From contig CALSFV010000013.1 in the NCBI GenBank assembly GCA_943737045.1, positions 658,501 to 722,500 of the forward strand: a DNA stretch of 64,000 nucleotides. The letters run 5' to 3'. The DNA comes from Parapristionchus giblindavisi (taxonomy: Eukaryota; Nematoda; Chromadorea; Rhabditida; Diplogasteridae). A model generated the notes under the pieces. That model saw only the letters and a program-made list of their open reading frames with translations. It had not been told where the DNA came from and made no database searches. Shown here one piece after another: positions 5,701 through 47,656 of the stretch. Every line of letters begins with the position of its first letter. The stretch's first letter is position 1. Both the position numbers and the translations under genes were made by a program.

Positions 5701-6510
5701 ATAACGCACACGTAGTGGCCATTCCGATAATTTTTAGCGAAATCTGACCCACTGCACTTGATCTGACCCACCGAACAGGGTTACGGTAGATTACTGTAGT
5801 TTACAATAGCTGGAAATTATAACGCACACGTAGTGGCCATTCCGATAATTTTTAGCGAAATCTGACCCACTGCACTTGATCTGACCCACCGAACCGGGTT
5901 ACGGTAGATTACTGTAGTTTACAATAGCTGGAAATTATAACGCACACGTAGTGGCCATTCCGATAATTTTTAGCGAAATCTGACCCATTGCACTTGATCT
6001 GACCCACCGAACCGGGTTACGGTAGATTACTGTAGTTTACAATAGTCGAAAATGATTTCGCACAAGTAGTGGCTGTTCCGACTATTTTTAGTGAAATCTG
6101 ACCCACCGCACTTGATCTGACCCACCGAACCGGGTTACGGTAGATTACTGTAGTTTACAATAGTCGAAAATGATTTCGCACAAGTAGTGGCTGTTCTGAC
6201 AATTTTTACTGAAATCTGACCCACCGCACATGATCTGACCCACCGAACCGGGTAACGGTAGATTACTGTAGTTTACAATAGCTGAAAATGATTTCGCACA
6301 AGTAGTGGCTGTCCCGACAATTTTTAGTGAAATCTGACCCACCGCACTTGATCTGACCCACCGAACCAGGTTACGGTAGATTACTGTAGTTTACAATAGT
6401 CGAAAATGATTTCGCACAAGTAGTGGCTGTTCTGACAATTTTTAGTGAAATCTGACCCACCGAACTTGATCTGACCCACCGAACTGGGTTACGGTAGATT
6501 ACGGTAGTGT
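2790..6510. repeat. 118-bp satellite array (about 31 units)
   Basis: GATCTGACCCACCGAACCGG recurs every 118 bases (for example 2810, 2928). Two unit types alternate, one with CGAAAATGATTTCGCACAAG and one with TGGAAATTATAACGCACACG. The block from about 2928 recurs at 3518, exactly five units (590 bases) later, so there is higher-order structure. Small reading frames inside are repeats of one another and are not genes. Confidence 0.95.
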
Positions 6511-6950
6511 TACTGATGCTGATCACAATGATACCCATCCCAAGTTTCTAGGACCTCTATGAGCCGAGTTATTCCGAAATGTCGGTTTCCGAATTGTCTA
6601 GGCCCCGCCCCCTCCACTCTCATTGGTCCTCCAAGACTCCGCCCAGCGTGACATTCGGTACATTTTTGCAACTCAGGTGCACATGGTTCACGATATGGTA
6701 CCGACTTGTGACCGGTACCGTTCGAATATGGAGCCATAGGCATGACTACCCTGAACTTGAAACGAGTTTGCCACCATTCTGGTCCCGGAGAGGAGTTTTG
6801 AAAAACAGGTCTCCTAGTCCTCTGTTGTAAAAGGTCTCTCCTAAAAAAAAGAACCCAAATGGGCCAGTCTCTTCGAGACTGGCCTTAAGCAGAATACGAT
6901 TGCTCATTTAGTAAAAAAAAGGTAAGGTATTATAAAATGGAAAGAACTGG
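6510..6950. other. Unidentified unique stretch with a hairpin
   Basis: The stretch carries overlapping open frames on both strands of under 85 codons with no recognisable domain. At 6863-6885 there is a perfect hairpin, GGCCAGTCTC then TTC then GAGACTGGCC, preceded by CCCAAATGGG like the inverted repeat at position 1. The same stretch is repeated at 9403-9843. I see no gene. Confidence 0.4.
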
Positions 6951-6957
6951 AAAATAC

Positions 6958-8334
6958 CTGGAAGTTGGGATACACTTTATGCGTGACAGCATCAACCCAT
7001 CTAAAGTATGCACATCAGTCTTATTTAGATTTTATAACAGTTCATTTATTTTTTCGTGCAAATAATCTAAACAAAACGTATTTCGTGAACAAGGGGTTTA
7101 TGAAAAGTATATTTTATTTCCTCATAAATTGGAAAAAGGAGAATACTCACTGGTCATTCTCACAAGCGATATAAGCTATCGACAATATTCCATTGAGAGT
7201 TTTCTGGAAAATGAGTATTATACCAAATATATTTCATTTTTCGTTTAGTATTGAGGCTAGACTAACAATAGTACATTCGTTCGTCCCAATTAATTTCACC
7301 ACTCCGCTCATGGTTTGCCTATAAGGATTCAGTTAAAATGGCATTGTAATGCATTCCAGTCCAACTTTGGAAGAATCGTGTTCGTTGTCGTTGATATCAT
7401 GGTTGAAGAAGTGATAATACAGAGATGTGCGGTGCTATTAGAACCTTTTTAACAGATCATTTTGCTCCGCTACTTTCCCTAATTTCCCACGGCGGCTCAA
7501 TGGAGAGAAATCCCTACATTTTACTTTGGCTTGAAGCCTCCCGCTCTACTAAAAATCGGCAAAGTTGATCTGCACCGGGCGGGATTCGAGCCTACGAGGT
7601 TCGGATCGCTACACAAAAGTTGTAGTCACTAAGCATGTTTGGGAACTCGTAAAACTTGATGATAGGTCTTGTCAGAAGCGTTCGTATGGAGAGCAGAGCG
7701 CCCAGATATATCGTAGTCAACTTTCGCGCTGTGAGAACGTAGATGTTTTAGTGCTTATCAATCCATACTCTCGGTTGAAACGGGAGTCTCCGCCAACTGC
7801 ATCAAGATTGATAGAATGAAGAAATGAGAGTTCTTTCTCCTCTTTCCCATACTCTCTCGTCCTAATCCAATTTCATTTTCATATCGCCCCATTATCCTAT
7901 AAAAGCATTCCATTCATTCTCTCCGGTTCAGACCAAAGCTCTCCCATCTTGAGGAGAGCTCGGGGATCATTTCGCACCCATGGAAATCGTCCTCCCTGTG
8001 AAGAGGATGTCCAATCCATTCCATCGAAAAGATAAACCGAAGTTCCAATACTGACAAAACTGACCCAGGTTCAGAAAATTCATTGTTTTAATCTAATACA
8101 TACCGCAACCAAATTATCGCGATATTCATTTTCACAAGTGAGGTTTTCATTTCTGGGAATAGCTTTTCCAGACTATGTATATCCTCCAATGTTTGCCCTC
8201 GATAAGTGTTCCAAGGTAGGGCAATCACTCATTACTGGAAATATTCAAATTTAATTTAATTGAAATATTGAACATTAATAACAACCTGAGGCGCAGAGCG
8301 CAGAAAGCGAGATGAATTGAAGAAGATGAAACAT
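6958..8334 (-). pseudogene. Family S (Sushi/CCP-like secreted) gene, copy a, truncated
   Basis: Four exons match the intact S gene at 36398-40396 in length and phase: 8286-8334 (signal peptide MFHLLQFISLSALCAS), 8104-8234 (first half of the module, VMSDCP and GGYT), 7151-7203 (ILSIAYIACENDQ) and 6958-7000 (WVDAV to NFQ). Exon lengths 49, 131, 53 and 43 give continuous phases 1, 0, 2, 0. A TAG stop at 8173-8175 interrupts exon 2, and the last two exons are missing because unidentified sequence and satellite begin downstream. Its own promoter upstream of about 8382 has been replaced by satellite at the duplication junction. Confidence 0.8.
7478..7790 (-). mobile_element. tRNA-derived SINE-like element, copy 1
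   Basis: On the minus strand a box-B-like GGCTCGAATCCCGCC (7579-7593) is followed by a conserved tail reading through AACTTTGCCGATTTTTAG. The same sequence occurs at 20275-20600, where a box A (TGGCTTAGTGGCTA) is better preserved. It lies in intron 2 of the dead S gene and is duplicated at 10371-10683. Confidence 0.65.
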
Positions 8335-8382: not shown

Positions 8383-9410
8383 GACAATTTTTAGTGAAAT
8401 CTGGCCCACCGCACTTGATCTGACCCACCGAACCGGGTTACGGTTGATTACTGTAGTTTGCACTAGCTCATAATGATTTCGCACAAGTAGAGGCTGTTCT
8501 GACAATTTTTAGTGAAATCTGGCCCACCGCACTTGATCTGGCCCACCGAACCGGGTTACGGTAGATTACTGTAGTTTACAATAGCTGGAAATTATAACGC
8601 ACACGTAGTGGCCATTCCGATAATTTTTAGCGAAATCTGACCCACTGCACTTGATCTGACCCACCGAACAGGGTTACGGTAGATTACTGTAGTTTACAAT
8701 AGCTGGAAATTATAACGCACACGTAGTGGCCATTCCGATAATTTTTAGCGAAATCTGACCCACTGCACTTGATCTGACCCACCGAACCGGGTTACGGTAG
8801 ATTACTGTAGTTTACAATAGCTGGAAATTATAACGCACACGTAGTGGCCATTCCGATAATTTTTAGCGAAATCTGACCCATTGCACTTGATCTGACCCAC
8901 CGAACCGGGTTACGGTAGATTACTGTAGTTTACAATAGTCGAAAATGATTTCGCACAAGTAGTGGCTGTTCCGACTATTTTTAGTGAAATCTGACCCACC
9001 GCACTTGATCTGACCCACCGAACCGGGTTACGGTAGATTACTGTAGTTTACAATAGTCGAAAATGATTTCGCACAAGTAGTGGCTGTTCTGACAATTTTT
9101 ACTGAAATCTGACCCACCGCACATGATCTGACCCACCGAACCGGGTAACGGTAGATTACTGTAGTTTACAATAGCTGAAAATGATTTCGCACAAGTAGTG
9201 GCTGTCCCGACAATTTTTAGTGAAATCTGACCCACCGCACTTGATCTGACCCACCGAACCAGGTTACGGTAGATTACTGTAGTTTACAATAGTCGAAAAT
9301 GATTTCGCACAAGTAGTGGCTGTTCTGACAATTTTTAGTGAAATCTGACCCACCGAACTTGATCTGACCCACCGAACTGGGTTACGGTAGATTACGGTAG
9401 TGTTACTGAT
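8383..9410. repeat. 118-bp satellite, second block
   Basis: About nine units of the same satellite as 2790-6510. It is the satellite part of the second copy of the 2893-bp duplication and is identical to 5490-6517. Confidence 0.9.
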
Positions 9411-9850
9411 GCTGATCACAATGATACCCATCCCAAGTTTCTAGGACCTCTATGAGCCGAGTTATTCCGAAATGTCGGTTTCCGAATTGTCTAGGCCCCG
9501 CCCCCTCCACTCTCATTGGTCCTCCAAGACTCCGCCCAGCGTGACATTCGGTACATTTTTGCAACTCAGGTGCACATGGTTCACGATATGGTACCGACTT
9601 GTGACCGGTACCGTTCGAATATGGAGCCATAGGCATGACTACCCTGAACTTGAAACGAGTTTGCCACCATTCTGGTCCCGGAGAGGAGTTTTGAAAAACA
9701 GGTCTCCTAGTCCTCTGTTGTAAAAGGTCTCTCCTAAAAAAAAGAACCCAAATGGGCCAGTCTCTTCGAGACTGGCCTTAAGCAGAATACGATTGCTCAT
9801 TTAGTAAAAAAAAGGTAAGGTATTATAAAATGGAAAGAACTGGAAAATAC

Positions 9851-11227
9851 CTGGAAGTTGGGATACACTTTATGCGTGACAGCATCAACCCATCTAAAGT
9901 ATGCACATCAGTCTTATTTAGATTTTATAACAGTTCATTTATTTTTTCGTGCAAATAATCTAAACAAAACGTATTTCGTGAACAAGGGGTTTATGAAAAG
10001 TATATTTTATTTCCTCATAAATTGGAAAAAGGAGAATACTCACTGGTCATTCTCACAAGCGATATAAGCTATCGACAATATTCCATTGAGAGTTTTCTGG
10101 AAAATGAGTATTATACCAAATATATTTCATTTTTCGTTTAGTATTGAGGCTAGACTAACAATAGTACATTCGTTCGTCCCAATTAATTTCACCACTCCGC
10201 TCATGGTTTGCCTATAAGGATTCAGTTAAAATGGCATTGTAATGCATTCCAGTCCAACTTTGGAAGAATCGTGTTCGTTGTCGTTGATATCATGGTTGAA
10301 GAAGTGATAATACAGAGATGTGCGGTGCTATTAGAACCTTTTTAACAGATCATTTTGCTCCGCTACTTTCCCTAATTTCCCACGGCGGCTCAATGGAGAG
10401 AAATCCCTACATTTTACTTTGGCTTGAAGCCTCCCGCTCTACTAAAAATCGGCAAAGTTGATCTGCACCGGGCGGGATTCGAGCCTACGAGGTTCGGATC
10501 GCTACACAAAAGTTGTAGTCACTAAGCATGTTTGGGAACTCGTAAAACTTGATGATAGGTCTTGTCAGAAGCGTTCGTATGGAGAGCAGAGCGCCCAGAT
10601 ATATCGTAGTCAACTTTCGCGCTGTGAGAACGTAGATGTTTTAGTGCTTATCAATCCATACTCTCGGTTGAAACGGGAGTCTCCGCCAACTGCATCAAGA
10701 TTGATAGAATGAAGAAATGAGAGTTCTTTCTCCTCTTTCCCATACTCTCTCGTCCTAATCCAATTTCATTTTCATATCGCCCCATTATCCTATAAAAGCA
10801 TTCCATTCATTCTCTCCGGTTCAGACCAAAGCTCTCCCATCTTGAGGAGAGCTCGGGGATCATTTCGCACCCATGGAAATCGTCCTCCCTGTGAAGAGGA
10901 TGTCCAATCCATTCCATCGAAAAGATAAACCGAAGTTCCAATACTGACAAAACTGACCCAGGTTCAGAAAATTCATTGTTTTAATCTAATACATACCGCA
11001 ACCAAATTATCGCGATATTCATTTTCACAAGTGAGGTTTTCATTTCTGGGAATAGCTTTTCCAGACTATGTATATCCTCCAATGTTTGCCCTCGATAAGT
11101 GTTCCAAGGTAGGGCAATCACTCATTACTGGAAATATTCAAATTTAATTTAATTGAAATATTGAACATTAATAACAACCTGAGGCGCAGAGCGCAGAAAG
11201 CGAGATGAATTGAAGAAGATGAAACAT
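9851..11227 (-). pseudogene. Family S gene, copy b, truncated
   Basis: Exact counterpart of 6958-8334, shifted by 2893 bases. Exons are at 11179-11227, 10997-11127, 10044-10096 and 9851-9893, with the same in-frame TAG in exon 2 (11066-11068). Unlike copy a it keeps its original upstream region, with TATTTAA at 11260-11266 and AGATAAG at 11296-11302, so it is the parental copy for the promoter side. It may still be transcribed but cannot make a complete protein. Confidence 0.8.
10371..10683 (-). mobile_element. tRNA-derived SINE-like element, copy 2
   Basis: Duplicate of the element at 7478-7790 inside the second 2893-bp unit. Confidence 0.65.
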
Positions 11228-28985: not shown

Positions 28986-29008
28986 GCAGATACCGCTTAT
29001 ATTTTTCT

Positions 29009-31231
29009 TAAGAGACCGGCTCGGTAAGACTCGAGCATGGTCCGGACATTCGCGAGGAATTTCGATCTGGCCCTCAATACTTTCATCATAGACGCATACC
29101 GGGGGGAGACCGATGAAAGTTATAGTGAAAATGCCCTTAGGCTCAAACCCGGCTCAAATATGTCACATTAATTAAAAAATTGAAAAATTCATATCTTTTC
29201 AATCGTGATAGCTAGGACTTTTATTTCTTTTTATTAGTGAATAACATGTCAAGCACTCTTACAAACACTGCTGAACACTAATATCATATCGTTTTGAATA
29301 TGTTTTTTCGGGTCTGATTTTCAGATTTTTTTCCTTCTATCTTCGTTGAAGAGATACTGCAAGAAAATTCATAGTGCATATTGTAGCCCTGACGATTATG
29401 TACATGTTGGTCACATTCCCTTGGCCAGCCAGTTTGTCATAAGCCTCGAGAATTGCAACTGAATATGAGATATGTGTAAATTGGAAAAATCGAAAATTAA
29501 ATTTCTTGAAATTCGCAAGAGCAAGAGTTAGCTTTATAATGTCATTTTACTCGTAGTGATGCGCGTATATAGGAAAAATATACAAATAGACTTGGACTAC
29601 ATTTAAAAAAAAATTAGAAAAATAATTATTTTATTTTTATTTTTTCAACTGCCACATTCAGTCGACCGTCAAGGCAAGTTGATTCATAGGGCGGATGGTG
29701 GCTAATGCATGTGCGTTTGCAGAAACGACTGCAACGTGATGAGTCGTCGTTTCGCAGATCTTGAATTTATTTTTTTATTTATCAAACTTGAATATTTATA
29801 CGTTTCTTTCATATAAATCGGTTGGAAGGTAGCGTATTGCATCCAAAGCTGTACCATTTTAATCTGTAGGAGTATACGCTATTGGACTACTGTCAACGTC
29901 AAGAATCGCGAACTGATTTTTTTTTTCAGTCGACTCATGATTTTCAACCATGACCCCGGGTTCATGGTTGAGAATTTCTGAGGCCGAAAATTCATGATGA
30001 TCCCAGATCAAATACTATTTGGCATTATATCAGCAGTGGGCCAACTTTTATTTTTATGGATACCATAGTTCGAATTACCGTAATCTAGCTACCGTATCCT
30101 ATAATAATGTGGTGAGATTCTCGGAAAATTCATGTACGTGCATTACTATTACGGTAATTCGAGTTATGGAATCCATAAAAATAAAAGTTGGCCCACTGTT
30201 GATATATTGCCAAATAGTATTTGGTCTGGGATCATCATGAATTTTTCGACCTCAACCATTCTCAACCATGAACCCCGGGTCATGGTTGAAAATAATGGGT
30301 CGACTGAAAAAAAATCAGTTCGCGATTCTTGACGTTGACGGTAGTCCAATAGCGTATACTCGTACTGATTAAAATGGTACAGCTTTGGATGCAATGCGCT
30401 ACCTTCCAACCGATTTATATGAAAGAAACATATAAATATTCAAGTTTGATAAATAAAAAAATAAATTCAAGATCTGCTAAACGACGACTCTTCACGTTGC
30501 AGTCGTTTCTGCAAACGCACATGCATTAGCCACCATCCGCCCTATGAATCAACTTTCCTTGACGGTCGACTGAATGTGGCAGTTGAAAAAATAAAAATAA
30601 AATAATTATTTTTCTAAATTTTTAAAAAATGTAGTCCAAGTCTATTTGTATATTTTTCCTATGTACGCGCATCGCTACGAGTAAAATGACATTGTAAAGC
30701 TAACTCTTGCTCTTGCGAATTTCAAGAAATTTAATTTTCGATTTTTCCAATTTACACATATCTCATATTCAGTTGCAATTCTCGAGGCTTATGACAAACT
30801 GGCTGGCCAAGGGAATGTGACCAACATGTACATAATCGTCAGGGCTACAATATGCACTATGAATTTTCTTGCAGTATCTCTTCAACGAGGATAGAAGGAA
30901 AAAAATCTGAAAATCAGACCCGAAAAAACATATTCAAAACGATATGATATTAGTGTTCAGCAGTGTTTGTAAGAGTGCTTGACATGTTATTCACTAATAA
31001 AAAGAAATAAAAGTCCTAGCTATCACGATTGAAAAGATATGATTTTTTCAATTTTTTAATTAATGTGACATATTTGAGCCGGGTTTGAGTTTAAGGGCAT
31101 TTTCACTATAACTTTCATCGGTCTCCCCCCGGTATGTGTCTATGATGAAAGTATTGAGGGCCAGATCGAAATTCCTCGCGAATGTCCGGCAGGGGGTCAA
31201 AATGCTCGAGTCTTACCGAGCCGGTCTCTTA
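29009..31231. repeat. Giant foldback, arms about 1.0 kb
   Basis: 29009-30120 recurs inverted at 30125-31231 almost without interruption, bounded by AAGAGACCGGCTCGGTAAGA and its complement. The related word ACACCGGCTCAGTGAGATTC bounds the foldback at 50840-52308. The interior repeats the CCCGGGTCATGG core twice. No transposase. It lies inside intron 3 of the split S gene. Confidence 0.9.
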
Positions 31232-31896
31232 AAAGAACAAGCGTCTTATTTGACAATTTGGTAGCTTGATTGAATAGCTGGATGTGTGAAAGACAGAAAT
31301 GCATAGCATATAATTAAGGTGACCGATATAATCGGGGACATCTATTATAATCAACTACAAAATTTGAAGCCATAGCTCATATCGACGCGTCCATGGCATT
31401 GTCAAACTTTTTTTCTTCGCGGCTACAATCATTGAATGACCAAGTAAAACCCGTTTTGCTAAAACTGCCAAAAGTTTTCGCCTTTACTACCTTTTCCACT
31501 TCACTCTCCAGACCTTACTAGGGTTGCTGTTTTGCGTAAAATCTAATGCTTTTCATCTCACGCCTTAATTTGAGAAGAAATTCGACTCACTTTTCCGATT
31601 TTCCCGTGGAATCGCATCGGATTGCGAAACTGGCAAATATTCCAAAAGGTGTTTGCTGAAATAATTCATTCAATAAACCGAAATATTCATATGTTAAAGT
31701 AACTCAATTTGCAGTTTATTCTACTGCATTCTGCACCCAAACAATTGATCTTGCATTGTAGAGTGACCACTTTTTAAATATTCTTGTACATTTTAGAACA
31801 TACCACATATATTTGGTCAGTCGATTTATCACATACTAGGTATCCATCGGCACTGTTTATTCTGGGTTTACCACTGTATGCATACCCTTCAGGAAT

Positions 31897-34445
31897 CTCT
31901 TAATGAGAGAGACAGAAGACGAAATTGTTCATGACTGTGAATAAAGGTAAAAAGGAAATGATAAAGATACTATAAGCAAAACAAACGCGGTCCGATGTTT
32001 CGGCCCTCGGTTCTAGACACCGGAACCGCCCCATGTGGGTTGGGCCTCATCAGTAGACGAGCCCACATAGGATTTTTGTAAAAACAAGTTATCAAAAGAA
32101 AAAATAGAAAGAATGTATTTGAAAGAGTAACTAATAAGATCTAATGTTAGAAAGAAAGAGCACAACAAAACAAAAGCACTTAGAGACTGAGGTAGTATTG
32201 TACCTCTCCGTAATCGTCCTCTGAATAGAGTGACATGTCCACTCAAAGGTGTGAGAGTTGGTGAGAGAGAGAGTGGATGATAGAGTGTGTAGACATGAGA
32301 GAGTACAAGACGCAAGGTCAGAGAAGTGATAGAGAGTGTGTACATATAAGAGAGTATAGGAACCAGGTCTATGATCTACCGTTCAATAGTACTCTATGTT
32401 GAATTGACCAGATTGTTTGAACTTTGAACTGGGTTTTCGACCTTTAATTTAAATAATCATGAAATATTCTAGTGCCAAATATGTAAACAAATTTCAGCAT
32501 TGGTTTTGTTATATTTCATGCCTATTATGGGTGTTTTATTAAGTAACTTAAATACTTTTGTTTTAATTTTATAAATCGGATACTGAATTTTCGTATAATA
32601 CGCTATTAGAGATTGTGTGCGTGCAACAAAGCTGTCAAATTTTGTCGAATTTCTATAAATTCTTAGTATTTCACTAGAAAGAGTGTTCATACCTATATAG
32701 ATTGGAATATTTGAGAGATAGTGAGGATATCTAATGACATCAAAGCTGTAGTCATCGGTTTTGTTATAAAGCTCAGTGGTAGCTTTACCATTTGTGACTT
32801 TAATACCGATGTCTAAGAAGGTACATTCATCATCTTTCGTATTGGTTCTTTCTAATGTAAGTGAATTATGATACATATCTCTAGTCATATCTATAAATAG
32901 TTTTGTTTTATCAGAAATGTGTAGCAAGTCGTCTATATATCGGTATGTCCTTCCGAGCGAATATGCAATGGGATTTCTTAAATTAATATTCTTTTGTATG
33001 TATTGAAACTCCATAACTGCTAGCGCAAGATCAGCTATTTGTGGGGATGCATTGTTTCCCTGTGGAATTCCTTTTTCTTGTTTATAGTAGTTACCACCAT
33101 AATATGCATAACTATTATTTAGTATGTAATCCAAAATACATTTGACATCATTTTTATGATAAGATCTGCCATGAGATGAACTATTAGTTTTGTCGTATCT
33201 AACATACTTTCCATTGACGTTGATATATTCTGATCCAGCATTTTTAAACAAGAGGTCTAATAAGTAAAATATCTTATCCTTAACAACTATATGAGGAAGG
33301 TTGGTAAAGAGAGATGCGAAATCTGCACAAAATAGTTTAGTGTCTGCTTTGTTTATAGTAGCAACGTTCTGAACAACCTTGAGAGAGTTTTGTATAGTGA
33401 AGTAGTGATTAATCTTACTGTGTCCGGAAGTTGTATGACAATAATTTTTAAAATGATTCTGCAGAAATTTCAAAATCCTCTGCAACTCTATTGAAATTGG
33501 CTTCAGACTACTGTTATAAGCGCCTGTTATAAATCTGAATTTTATAGGATTTTTATGCATTTTAGGTATGCCATATATTCTTGGAAGAGTTCCATTAATT
33601 TGTGGAGATATTCCAAAACTTTTGGTAAATGCTGAATGTTCTTCCATCAACTTTTCATTGTTAATTTCTTCTTTTAAAACGTATGTTTTAACTCCTCCTA
33701 CGTTAGTGTTAAGTTCATTTTCCATAAATTTAAGGTAAAGCTTTTTGCAAGTAAATGCGAAATTACCGGAAGCTTTATCAACAGCAGTTATTATGAAATT
33801 TTTATGTAATTTATTTAGGTATTTAAAATTGGCATTGTTTATGTTTTGTGGCAATAGTGCTTCGATTCTTTCTGACAATTTTACATATATTTGATCCTTT
33901 ATATCCAGAAGTAATTTATTATGTAGTGTTGATGATTTTTTAAATTTACGCAGAATTCTATATATCATATCACTAATCTCTTTTTCGATTCTTTGCATTA
34001 CTTCGGCATGACTCATAGTACTTTGTATTCTATATTTAGTTCCTTTTTCAATAAGCTCGCGTAGTTGATCATCTTCAACCATTGACGTATTACCTGTGCA
34101 AATATGACCATAATATGATTCTATTAAATAGGGAAAGTCATTGCAGTTACATTCATCCGATAAAATCCGCTGTTTCTCAGTATTTGAAAGATTTCTAAGA
34201 AATTTACCGTAATTGCATACTCTATTCATAATAGGATCATTAAGAGTATAACGGATACATACATACGGTATTTCGTCATCTTTAATATCAGTATGTTTCC
34301 ATACTTCTTTCAACTTGTTACCATTTAACAGTTTAGAAAATGGAATTTTATCCAAAAACTTTCCAATAAAAGGTATTTTTAATATAACCTCATTTGTGTG
34401 TTTTCGTTTAATAGTATCTTTCTGATTATTCCAATAGTGTGTCGG
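31897..34445 (-). mobile_element. Penelope-like reverse-transcriptase element inserted in an S-gene exon
   Basis: The two halves of an S-gene exon stop at GAG on one side (34446) and resume after GAG on the other (31896), so about 2.5 kb was inserted, with a possible 3-base duplication or microhomology. The insert holds the 668-codon reverse-transcriptase frame, about 570 bases of 3' sequence and a hammerhead-like motif. No GIY-YIG or other endonuclease is seen, and no terminal repeats are visible, so element boundaries rest only on the host exon. Confidence 0.7.
31994..32053 (-). ncRNA. Hammerhead-ribozyme-like motif
   Basis: On the minus strand CTGATGA (32053-32047) is followed by GGCCC, a loop with two extra hairpins, GGGCC, then GAAACATC (ending 31994). 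This is the order of a hammerhead core: CUGAUGA, stem II, GAAA, then a NUH (AUC) cleavage triplet. Stem II is five perfect pairs. Stem III is minimal, and stem I would be only about four pairs (GTCT with GGAC) with one unpaired A, so activity is uncertain. Such motifs are known in Penelope-like retroelements, which fits the reverse transcriptase next to it. Confidence 0.5.
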
Positions 34446-34577
34446 CTCCAAAAACGTCAAGTTGCACTCACTCATAACTAAAGAAAAATACTTTTAGTAT
34501 TTAAAATGAATAAAAAAATAAGTCAAACCTCTTCCAGAGAGAGCAGAAATCGATATGACATGTAAGAGAATCCACAT
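32469..34577 (-). CDS. Penelope-like reverse transcriptase, in-frame chimera with an S-gene signal peptide
   Basis: The frame 34475-32469 (668 residues) has reverse-transcriptase motifs in order: LPRIYGIPKMHKNP at 297-310, FRFITG 313-318, FCADFASLFTNLP 382-394, GIPQGNNASPQIADL 469-483 and catalytic YRYIDDLL 511-518, then FLDIGIKV. This order and the LFTNLP and KMHKNP signatures fit the Penelope-like group and related animal reverse transcriptases without endonuclease. The first ten residues are S-gene exon 2. A 51-base intron (34478-34528, GTTTGA to TTTAG) joins exon 34529-34577 in phase, giving a predicted 685-residue protein that starts with a hydrophobic leader. No stop or frameshift in 2 kb. 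It could equally be a recent insertion that is translated only by chance of frame. Confidence 0.75.
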
Positions 34578-34665
34578 TGTGCAACTGTAATTTCATTCAA
34601 AATCGTCCGACTTAAATATCTACATGAGAGGTGCTTAAAATGGGAGAGATAAGGCGATTCGTGGA
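34578..34665 (-). promoter_or_regulatory. Family S promoter upstream of the reverse-transcriptase chimera
   Basis: Toward the gene: AGATAAG at 34647-34653 (about 70 bases upstream), TATTTAA at 34612-34618 (35 bases upstream), then ATTACAG and a seven-base leader before ATG. Spacing matches four other S promoters to within three bases. Confidence 0.6.
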
Positions 34666-39300: not shown

Positions 39301-40396
39301 TCAAAAACTATTTTTATTGAATATAAACGAAAAAAATGAAACATTTGTGACAAATAGTGAAAACATTTGTCAAAACTTAACAGCATTTCCGTATTATCTG
39401 TGATTTTTATTGGGTATCTTTTTGCTTTGCCCTAATGCATAAGAAAAAACTGAAAAATGTAACAGCTGGCGCTGCAGAGAAAAATTGATATAATGTGGCA
39501 TACTGTTGCATCTTTCTGTAAATGTACTAGCATTTTTATTTCTTCACATTATTATTATTTCTTCACTATCATTACATGACTCCATACATTGAATTTACTC
39601 AGGTGGCATTAATCGAAAACTTCAAAACTGGTATACCGTAGGATTTTCTCCACAATACAGAATTTTTCTCCACAATGTTTTTATCATTGTTCGAATAAAA
39701 TTATAGTTATATTAATAATAGTTATAGTAATAAAATAATAGTTATGTTAATTATAGTTGTTAGATTTATTGTTAGTTGAAGTAGTATAGATAAACAACCC
39801 TCTTTTCGTGATCTGTTTTCTCTTTTTTATTTCGCTTTCGGTTGTTTGTTTTTGCTTTGTATATTTGTATTTGCTCTCAGCTCTCAGATGCTCTCAGATG
39901 TGGGGGGAATTAGATATCTCTTCAAACGTGCCTCAAATAGGGCGAGGCGGGTGGTATGAACAGAGAGTAAGGAGAGGGGAAGGGGGGGGGGGGGCGAGAG
40001 ATAGCGTAATTCCCGCTAGTTTGCGGCAATTACGCTATCTTTGGCAGTGGTGTGTCTAATCACGAAGTTAGGAAGGGAGAGAGTGCCTCTCACGGGCGAT
40101 TGATAGAGGGAAGGGAAGGGGCGGGAATAGATAGCGTAGTCTTCGCTACCGTTCCTGCAACCCTACTACATACCAATAATGGTATCTCATAAGAGTTAGG
40201 ACAAGGATACCGTCCTGTAACTACTCCAGCAGTGTAATTATATCCGTTGATAATTTCTTCGGGTGGTAATTGTTTAATTGGAGGGCACTGGCACATCACT
40301 GAAAGATTTTTTGAGCTCACATTACAATATTCAATATTAAGATCAACCTGTAGCAAAGAGCGCAGAAAGCCAGAATATATGTAAAAGAATACCCAT
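36398..40396 (-). CDS. Family S secreted Sushi/CCP-like protein, intact
   Basis: Six exons: 40348-40396, 40174-40298, 37492-37544, 37123-37165, 36676-36703, 36398-36633. Every junction is GT/AG and phases run 1, 0, 2, 0, 1; total 534 bases, 177 residues. Residues 1-17 are a signal peptide (MGILLHIFWLSALFAT). Module 1 has Cys21-49-72-93 with NGY after the first Cys and Trp77 after the third, the Sushi pattern split over four exons. Module 2 has Cys101-124-147-171 without the Trp. An N-linked site (NYT) lies in exon 2. Introns are 49, 2629, 326, 419 and 42 bases; the large one holds a foldback. A splice acceptor (TTTCAG) lies six bases before ATG, as expected for trans-splicing. Probably secreted; ligand unknown. 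Sushi assignment is by pattern only. Confidence 0.8.
36720..37120. other. Intron 4 of the intact S gene
   Basis: No further exon or repeat of a known family recognised. Contains a PyPu-rich TTTTTTTGAAAAAAAAAGTG tract. Confidence 0.4.
37545..38540. other. Intron 2 of the intact S gene, left part
   Basis: 38085-38165 resembles 45395-45470 at the 5' edge of the CR1-like LINE (TTTAAATCTCTCAA / TTATATCTCTCAA, then CGGGCA-TGTGA), so it may be a fragment of the same region. No exon. Confidence 0.4.
38540..40172. repeat. Foldback in intron 2 of the intact S gene
   Basis: GGGTTGCCGTT at 38535 and GAACGGTAGC-GGGTTGC at 40140-40165 mark the ends. Inner arms (CCGCCTCGCCCTATTTGAGG at 38723-38742 and CCTCAAATAGGGCGAGGCGG at 39932-39951) are exact inverted copies. 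Near 38635 there is a 43-base hairpin of GATAGCGTAATTCCCGC and its complement. The right end abuts the donor of exon 2 (40173) yet leaves GTATGT intact. Confidence 0.85.
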
Positions 40397-45339: not shown

Positions 45340-47656
45340 ACTCGCACTATATTTTAAACTTCAAATTCCCCCCCCCCCTCCACTCGCCCTTTACATTTTA
45401 TATCTCTCAAAGATTGTTCGGTTTTGCTGAACTCGACGGAAACTGTTACGGGCATTGTGATTACCCTCGTCCTAAGGACACTACAGATTTTAATCCGGTC
45501 AATTTGTATAGTCTTAGTTTGCCGATTTTCAATTGCTACATACCCATGCTGTTCTTTCGTTTTCGGTATTACAAGTCATCTCTCTCTCTACACAGCCTTT
45601 TCCTCTCGCATTACCACTATTATAAATAATTTCATTCCACTACGAAAAGTTTGTAATAATAATAAAGCACTCTCCCCATCGTCTCTCAACCTCCTACGAC
45701 GATGCCGACGATTATATAGAAATAGACATTCTATTGGTATTGGCCCCTTTCTTCGTCTCAACAAACGGTTACGCCAATCCGTTGCTAAGACCCGTAGAAT
45801 ACGCGAACGATCCCTATTCCGCAATCCTAATTCCAAGAATTTTTTCAAATTCGCCAACGAACGTATCAAGGATGGGTCATCTTCAATTGGATCTTTAGTG
45901 AAAAGCAATGGTAATGTTCTCACGTCCGATGTAGATAAGGCCCAAGCCCTAGCCGATTATTTTAACGAGACCTTTAATCATACGATATACCCACTTGCCA
46001 CAAATGCGCCTTCTCATACTAATGAATCCATCGATTTTGCTTATTTCTCTGCCTCTCGAATAGAGAAAATAATAAGGAAATTACCAAACAGAATTTCTAC
46101 AACTCCAGACTTTATTCCATACTCATTTCTGCGCAAAACAGCAGCCCAAATCTCCATTCCGTTATCTATTCTCTTTCATCGTTTTCTTCTTTATTCTATG
46201 GTACCTACCTCCTGGCGCACGGCAATAGTTCGTCCAATATATAAAAGAAAGGGAGCAAAACACACAATAAGTAACTATCGTCCTATTTCATTAACAAGTG
46301 CATGTTGTAAGGTTATGGAAAGAATTATATGTCAAGATATTTCGCACTTCCTAAATGAAAATGACTTGTTGAGTAATTCACAGCATGGTTTTCGCTTGAA
46401 ACGTTCATGTAATACCTGTCTTCTAACTACTGTCAATCACTGGCACCGCCATCTTGATAGAAAAAGTTATATCACATGCGCATATATAGATTTTAGCAAA
46501 GCATTCGATACCATTCCAATAAATCTTCTGGTCCAAAAATGCGAACAATATGGAATACGGGGATGTCTCCTGAATTGGATTTCTTCCTTCCTCCAATCCC
46601 GATCACAATCCGTACAAGTTGGTCTTTCCCAATCCCGCCCATACAATACAGTTAGCGGTGTACCACAAGGTAGCTGCTTAGGCCCCCTGCTTTTCTCTCT
46701 TTTCATCAATGAACTACCTTCCCTACTCCCTAGAGGTGCATTTTGTTCTATTTATGCTGATGATATGAAAATTTACTCATTTGATGATCCGTCCATTATT
46801 CAACACTCATTGAACACTGTACATGAATGGAGCATGAATTTTGGTCTTTGCATGTCCAAAACAAAGTCCGTCGTCATGCATATTGGGGCCAATCATCCCG
46901 ATGTTGCTTTATATGTAGACAACGAAGTGCTTCCCGTGGTAAAAGAGTTTACAGATCTTGGTGTAACGTATAATAATAAGTTAGAGTTTCATAACCACAT
47001 TACAAATATCGTCAACAAGGCCAAAGCGCGATGCGCATACATTCATAGATCTTTTATGTCTCGCTCCATAAATGTTTATGCACGTCTTTTTCAGACTTAC
47101 GTCTTGCCTGTTCTGGAATACTGTAGCGAGCTGTGGAATCCCAATAGTGTCATGCTGAATGATCTAATTGAGTCCTGTCTGACCTCATATTCCAGGAGAG
47201 TCCTTGCGAAGTGCGGCATACCCTACACAAACTACGCCGAGGCACTCAATCTACTTAATCTCCGATCACTGAAACATCGTCGAACCTGTCTAGATCTTTC
47301 TTTTGTATTTAAAATTGTTCACGGATTCGTTGATGTCGTTTATAGGCAATTTTTCATTATTTCGAGTAATCTAAATCGTACTAGAGGTCATCCTATGAGA
47401 ATGTGTTGTAATAGATGTAATAGTAGTAGATATCTTTCATTCTTCTCCAATAGAATTGTTAATAGTTGGAATAATCTTGATACATTAATTGTAACTTCCC
47501 CCAATCCTATAGTTTTCATTAATCATATTAAAGCTGTAATCATGTAATTTAGCAGCTATCGTCGAATCTTATTCATTTCTAAAGTATCGCTTTGAGTTTA
47601 TCTTCTGTTCCTCTTTATATAAGAAGCGATAAATATATTATTATTATTATTATTAT
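45340..47656 (+). mobile_element. CR1/jockey-type LINE, 5'-truncated
   Basis: One long open frame for reverse transcriptase, about 90 bases of 3' sequence and a (TTA)n tail ending at about 47656. The tail joins directly to the dead S-gene exon 2 at 47657. The apurinic endonuclease is missing, as usual for 5'-truncated copies. The left edge is uncertain; sequence from 45395 has a relative at 38085. Confidence 0.85.
45424..47547 (+). CDS. Non-LTR retrotransposon reverse transcriptase (CR1/jockey-like)
   Basis: 707 codons from the first ATG. Motifs: IVRPIYKRKG 268-277 and SNYRPISL 283-290, QHGFR 320-324, AYIDFSKAFDTIP 353-365, SGVPQGSCLGPLLF 411-424, catalytic IYADD 443-447, then LEYCSELWNP in the thumb region. 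The frame is uninterrupted, so the copy is young. The first 60 or so residues are hydrophobic and unlike the family and probably belong to the degraded endonuclease-RT linker, so the true start is unknown. Copies itself by target-primed reverse transcription in the family; without endonuclease this copy is unlikely to move by itself. Confidence 0.85.
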   Translation: MLNSTETVTGIVITLVLRTLQILIRSICIVLVCRFSIATYPCCSFVFGITSHLSLYTAFSSRITTIINNFIPLRKVCNNNKALSPSSLNLLRRCRRLYRNRHSIGIGPFLRLNKRLRQSVAKTRRIRERSLFRNPNSKNFFKFANERIKDGSSSIGSLVKSNGNVLTSDVDKAQALADYFNETFNHTIYPLATNAPSHTNESIDFAYFSASRIEKIIRKLPNRISTTPDFIPYSFLRKTAAQISIPLSILFHRFLLYSMVPTSWRTAIVRPIYKRKGAKHTISNYRPISLTSACCKVMERIICQDISHFLNENDLLSNSQHGFRLKRSCNTCLLTTVNHWHRHLDRKSYITCAYIDFSKAFDTIPINLLVQKCEQYGIRGCLLNWISSFLQSRSQSVQVGLSQSRPYNTVSGVPQGSCLGPLLFSLFINELPSLLPRGAFCSIYADDMKIYSFDDPSIIQHSLNTVHEWSMNFGLCMSKTKSVVMHIGANHPDVALYVDNEVLPVVKEFTDLGVTYNNKLEFHNHITNIVNKAKARCAYIHRSFMSRSINVYARLFQTYVLPVLEYCSELWNPNSVMLNDLIESCLTSYSRRVLAKCGIPYTNYAEALNLLNLRSLKHRRTCLDLSFVFKIVHGFVDVVYRQFFIISSNLNRTRGHPMRMCCNRCNSSRYLSFFSNRIVNSWNNLDTLIVTSPNPIVFINHIKAVIM

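Follow-up and report, generated by a model that had tools for sequence, protein, structure and literature searches.

Introduction

Penelope-like retroelements that carry a GIY-YIG endonuclease domain at the N-terminus are taken here to be of the Naiad/Chlamys type. The Athena elements of rotifers represent a Penelope lineage that lacks an endonuclease. Copies of Penelope elements with truncated 5' ends are known from the rotifer Adineta vaga, in which, according to the available part of the paper, one insertion is joined through microhomology and has no target duplication (PMC3846280). For the Penelope element Poseidon of Anolis, the accessible section of the report describes a tandem pseudo-LTR structure and a hammerhead motif (PMC11167929). 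In Pristionchus pacificus, the repeats are reported to include Penelope elements, and roughly 10–20% of the genes to overlap transposable elements (PMC9297572). Fusions with horizontally acquired sequence are treated in a further study, whose available section names Penelope only in the title of a reference (PMC13389597).

The locus described here lies in a stretch of 64,000 nucleotides from the diplogastrid nematode Parapristionchus giblindavisi (contig CALSFV010000013.1, positions 658,501 to 722,500), which is referred to as the window throughout. It contains a reverse transcriptase (RT) frame joined in phase to a small secreted-protein (S) gene. With a probability of about 0.9, the insert is a young copy, truncated at its 5' end, of a multi-copy Penelope-like element and landed in exon 2 of this gene, where it is in frame by chance.

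Structure of the fusion locus

On the minus strand, host exon 1, the intron and exon 2 run in phase into the RT frame. The following features were assigned (window coordinates):

34647..34653, minus strand: GATA-type element, 76 bases upstream of the ATG (CTTATCT on the gene strand)
34612..34618, minus strand: TATTTAA element, 41 bases before the ATG
34529..34577, minus strand: host exon 1, encoding MWILLHVISISALSGR plus one base, signal-peptide-like
34478..34528, minus strand: GT/AG intron of 51 bases, joining in phase and placed as in the paralogues
34442..34477, minus strand: first part of host exon 2, encoding the rest of V, then MSECNLTFLEP, plus one base
32469..34475, minus strand: open frame of 668 amino acids, 11 host codons followed by RT to the stop
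31902..34441, minus strand: 5'-truncated Penelope-like element, 99.88% identical to the copy on contig C211; the bases to 31897 are ambiguous
31997..32053, minus strand: hammerhead-like core (CTGATGAG ... CGAAAC) in the element's 3' region
31804..31896, minus strand: remainder of host exon 2, followed by GTATGT
31591..31655, minus strand: likely host exon 3 (QTPFGIFASFAIRCDSTGKSE...), predicted by eye and followed by GTGAGT

The original prediction had placed the start of a 668-codon frame (34475-32469) inside exon 2 of an S gene and linked it through an in-phase GT/AG intron of 51 bases to a signal exon at 34529-34577. Both claims held: the frame is open and is the RT frame, and the intron was located at 34528-34478. 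The proposed similarity of the exon 2 start (VMSEC) to the paralogues was likewise seen (VMSDC, VMCQC and VMCMC). Hydropathy, which is similar to that of the paralogues, and the paralogue pattern together suggest that exon 1 encodes a signal-peptide-like leader. Searches of the host exons against Pfam gave no families for two peptides and one chance-level match for the third. Residues of host origin make up the first 11 of the 668, and the alignment begins at residue 12 in 62 of the 66 scored matches from the same genome, the other four being the window itself and matches starting at residues 14, 25 and 322. Provided that the promoter and the splice sites of the host gene are still active, splicing would yield a putative RNA that encodes MWILLHVISISALSGRVMSEC... 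and then the RT.

Paralogues and promoter elements

Four S paralogues were found in the window (ATGs at 40396, 47849, 11227 and 8334, all on the minus strand), which share with the fusion locus the exon 1 pattern, the position of the intron and the VMxxC opening of exon 2. Of the two promoter elements said to be shared, TATTTAA was present in all five S copies, 38–41 bases before the ATG, whereas CTTATCT/AGATAAG was found in four of them, 73–76 bases before the ATG, and is missing at 8334. When the pair was defined as TATTTAA within 80 bases and CTTATCT/AGATAAG within 200 bases upstream, both motifs preceded 59 of 25,520 sampled window positions, a count that includes those of the S genes themselves.

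The S array is damage-prone. Among the four other S copies of the window, exon 2 looks intact in the 40396 copy alone: the copies at 11227 and 8334 have an identical in-frame stop in this exon, and the 47849 copy stops short within it, near the 3' side of an RT frame in the opposite direction (45358-47547), with the remainder of its exon 2 not found nearby. This last paralogue (47849-47600, minus strand) ends at an AAT repeat beside the 729-aa RT frame (plus strand), which is of another retroelement type. The copies at 11227-10950 and 8334-8060 (minus strand) are near-identical and lie inside a tandem duplication of ~2.9 kb, each unit of which holds an identical 124-aa frame (6510-6884 and 9403-9777). 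The window also contains a large palindrome at about 29008-31232 (one self-inverted match that spans 2,241 aligned bases and is 94% identical, with arms of about 1.1 kb).

Identity of the insert

The window RT contains ADFxSLFTNLPH, IPQGNNASP and RYIDDLL, which are presumed to be the core motifs of Penelope-type, telomerase-like RTs. It is conserved in every invariant column of an alignment with seven relatives, and its RT part has no stop; the Pfam RVT_1 score of the frame is below the cut-off (20.7 vs 29.6 bits). Protein searches returned 45 relatives. The named ones are all proteins of Pristionchus nematodes, except for one filed under a Flavobacteriaceae metagenome bin. Identities of 44–46% over 97–98% of the window frame were obtained with the GIY-YIG/RT proteins P0001, P0002 and P0005. 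When ten relatives were scanned with Pfam, GIY-YIG was detected in seven (P0001, P0002, P0005, P0016, P0019, P0025 and P0028), always in the N-terminal part, where the best stretches fall within residues 30–216, whereas the remaining three (P0003, P0020 and P0022) showed none; many longer unnamed relatives have a precomputed GIY-YIG domain. A search of the PDB by sequence gave a single match (E 0.59), and phage records gave no match. On the basis of alignment and core motifs, the insert is assigned to the Penelope-like retroelements. Two P. pacificus models named GPCR and bbs-1 (P0017 and P0031) contain Penelope-like RT with 57–60% identity over about 30% of the query, and are either gene-model merges or true insertions.

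The P. giblindavisi assembly (251 Mb, 703 contigs) was searched with the window frame, and 66 of 484 candidate matches were scored. The best other copies among these 66 were located on contigs C211 (99%, open frame of 938 aa) and C16 (98%, 938 aa). At the DNA level, the C211 copy corresponds to window positions 34441-31902 with three differences in 2540 bases and extends further 5' at the point where the window sequence becomes host exon; 282 residues of its frame lie 5' of the start of the window copy and are absent from the latter. Pfam placed GIY-YIG at residues 81-165, above the cut-off and with RT behind it in one frame, in all three full-length copies scanned (C211, C16 and C293), whose frames were delimited by stop codons (in that of C211, ATG first appears at codon 53). 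In the window frame, no GIY-YIG was detected by Pfam. The domain is a property of the full-length element and not of the truncated window copy, which has no endonuclease because it is 5'-truncated, so that no further explanation is needed. Its absence, originally held to be notable, therefore loses its significance.

Hammerhead-like motif

The hammerhead-like core pattern occurs in 25 of 35 Penelope-like loci (L009-L043, several of which overlap) and in none of eight other RT loci; in each of 20 rounds of shuffling, at most one of the 35 loci contained it. Diverged families show a paired change in the inner hairpin, from GGTTC/GAACC to GGTCC/GGACC. The score of the window stretch against Rfam Hammerhead_3 (21.7 bits) is below the cut-off of 48.5 bits, and Rfam lists no hammerhead for L039-L041. 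Folded by itself, the window stretch has a lowest-energy structure (z -3.64) that differs from the hammerhead fold.

Insertion boundaries and truncation

The junction between host and element lies at 34442/34441. The 3' end of the element falls between 31902 and 31897, with the last bases (CATTAA in other copies) not uniquely assignable, and host exon 2 resumes at about 31901-31897. The claim that the insertion site is defined to the base is thus correct for the 5' junction and accurate only to within about 5 bases for the 3' junction. When the window site was searched for a target duplication, only a 3-base match near the junction came up, and a long target duplication was rejected. No empty-site duplicate was found in the same genome, where both flanks lack a near-identical second copy: the downstream flank matched only itself and the upstream flank matched itself and four sequences at 70–77%.

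Truncation was assessed with a 572-base query from the element's 3' region, for which 40 of 489 candidates were scored. The 3' end was reached by 37 of the 40 (window included), and 26 of those 37 start inside the query, a count to be read with the provisos that contig C222, possibly as a single amplified locus, contributes 11 of the 40 and that divergent copies can look shortened. On C222 (G000:C222:850087-1034323), nine of these 11 matches cover the same stretch (362-569), as if co-amplified. The copies on C275, C42 (interrupted) and C351 start at element positions 2457, 2858 and 3278, respectively, compared with 1525 for the window copy; the 3' ends of all these copies lie no more than four bases apart, and no long direct repeat abuts the C275, C42 and C351 copies in the stretches fetched. 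Truncation at the 5' end is common in this element. The original prediction had proposed a comparison of 5' ends among the copies, and since others are shortened as well, the missing 5' end was rejected as a sign of capture.

Direct repeats and tandem structure of other copies

Direct repeats were found beside the three full-length copies (reverse-complement coordinates):

C211 (L039), 2365-2799 / 7127-7561: 435 bases, 99.5% identity
C16 (L040), 1250-1534 / 7117-7401: 285 bases, 100% identity
C293 (L041), 2352-2393 / 7166-7207: 42 bases, 95% identity

At each of these copies, the repeat adjoins the element directly on the 3' side; on the 5' side, 262 (C211), 16 (C16) and 9 (C293) bases separate it from the first recognised element sequence. 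Part of the C211 repeat recurs nearby in inverted orientation. Because of these gaps and the inverted part, the repeats may not all be simple target duplications. Repeats of 42–435 bases may bear on how Penelope elements with an N-terminal endonuclease cut DNA. Partial tandems, with a shortened copy or 3' piece placed before a longer copy, are present at C16, C293 and C5; in the stretches examined, this arrangement was not seen at C211 or in the window. The element has the tandem/partial-tandem (pseudo-LTR) structure of the Penelope type.

Age and selection

With C16 as outgroup, the window copy accounts for two of its three differences from the C211 copy (I to T and D to E) and the C211 copy for the third; each of them is amino-acid-changing, and there is no silent change. 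Values of dN and dS were 0.006 and 0.016 for C211 versus C16 (full frame) and 0.157 and 0.934 for the window copy versus C293, values that indicate a constrained element lineage. The test of dN/dS against the closest copies that had been suggested yielded just the two private changes, too few for a test; as both alter amino acids, there is no sign of selection on the fusion. The openness of the fusion frame follows from its youth; the window copy has its open frame by inheritance, which says nothing about selection on the fusion. By simple reasoning, about 1 in 6 landings in a coding exon would be both in sense direction and in the right frame.

Origin of the fusion

The sequence of events was most likely as follows. 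The parent is a Penelope-like element with an N-terminal GIY-YIG domain, present in many copies in the genome, whose reverse transcription probably stopped early and gave rise to a 5'-truncated new copy. This copy was joined into exon 2 of the secreted-protein gene in sense direction, with no visible target duplication and with the reading frame kept by chance, and the host gene is broken. From a promoter that is still functional, a transcript could arise that is spliced and translated, and the predicted product would comprise a signal-peptide-like leader, 11 host-derived residues and an RT with no endonuclease. A leader-bearing protein would be expected to enter the secretory route, so that no role in retrotransposition is expected. 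Most likely, the fusion has no function and will decay.

The original prediction left the choice between a recent accident and early co-option. The former agrees with the three differences in 2540 bases from a full-length copy. Two observations count against it: the full-length copies have direct repeats of 42–435 bases and the window copy has none, for which reason its joining route may differ, and the RT is open with its invariant columns kept, as co-option would also show. Early co-option, in which the host promoter drives the fusion and the RT with its leader has a role in the host, would account for the in-phase splice, the conserved promoter elements and the intact RT frame; it is very unlikely, however, given the 99.88% identity to an ordinary copy and the lack of silent changes in a copy too young to test, and the leader would probably route the RT to secretion, away from its nucleic-acid substrates. 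The chance is similarly slim that the chimera is transcribed and spliced to give a leader-bearing, endonuclease-less RT in the tissue of the secreted gene, as an initial stage of co-option or as a dominant new function.

An erroneous join of unrelated reads inside a repeat would fit an assembly in 703 contigs and a repetitive element. Such an artefact is highly improbable: neither flank has a near-identical second copy, and the flanks contain both parts of a single exon in one reading frame, followed by another likely exon, a layout that a mis-join would not produce. The absence of GIY-YIG from the window copy could also point to a distinct lineage lacking the endonuclease, comparable to rotifer Athena, that uses a captured host leader. 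This idea is barely credible and was rejected, since the full-length copies have GIY-YIG, including the C211 copy with 99.88% identity over the shared part, and the leader is not shared, only the window itself aligning upstream of residue 12. The young, truncated insertion thus remains the preferred reading, and the window fusion is ordinary insertion debris unless its expression is shown. It provides a clean young example of a truncated retrotransposon that gains a host promoter, a splice site and a leader in one step. As an intact-looking fusion frame can arise without selection, caution is advised against reading intact RT frames as co-option.

Comparison with known systems

By domain order rather than by a tree, the C211, C16 and C293 copies resemble the Naiad/Chlamys type, with GIY-YIG at residues 81-165 followed by RT; the window copy differs by truncation, lacking the first 282 residues of the C211 frame. 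Nearly all named relatives are Pristionchus Penelope-like RT proteins, the highest identity being 62% (P0013, over 53% of the query), but these are shorter or partial models, some of them merged with host genes (bbs-1, GPCR), perhaps by annotation error. Anolis Poseidon, as far as described in the available section of its report, is similar in its partial tandems and has a hammerhead motif, to which the hammerhead-like core found here may correspond; its endonuclease is C-terminal and that of the element described here N-terminal (PMC11167929). The canonical GIY-YIG Penelope elements of A. vaga, in the part of the paper available, have target duplications of 8–10 bases, compared with repeats of up to 435 bases here, and are like the present element in 5' truncation and in insertion without target duplication (PMC3846280).
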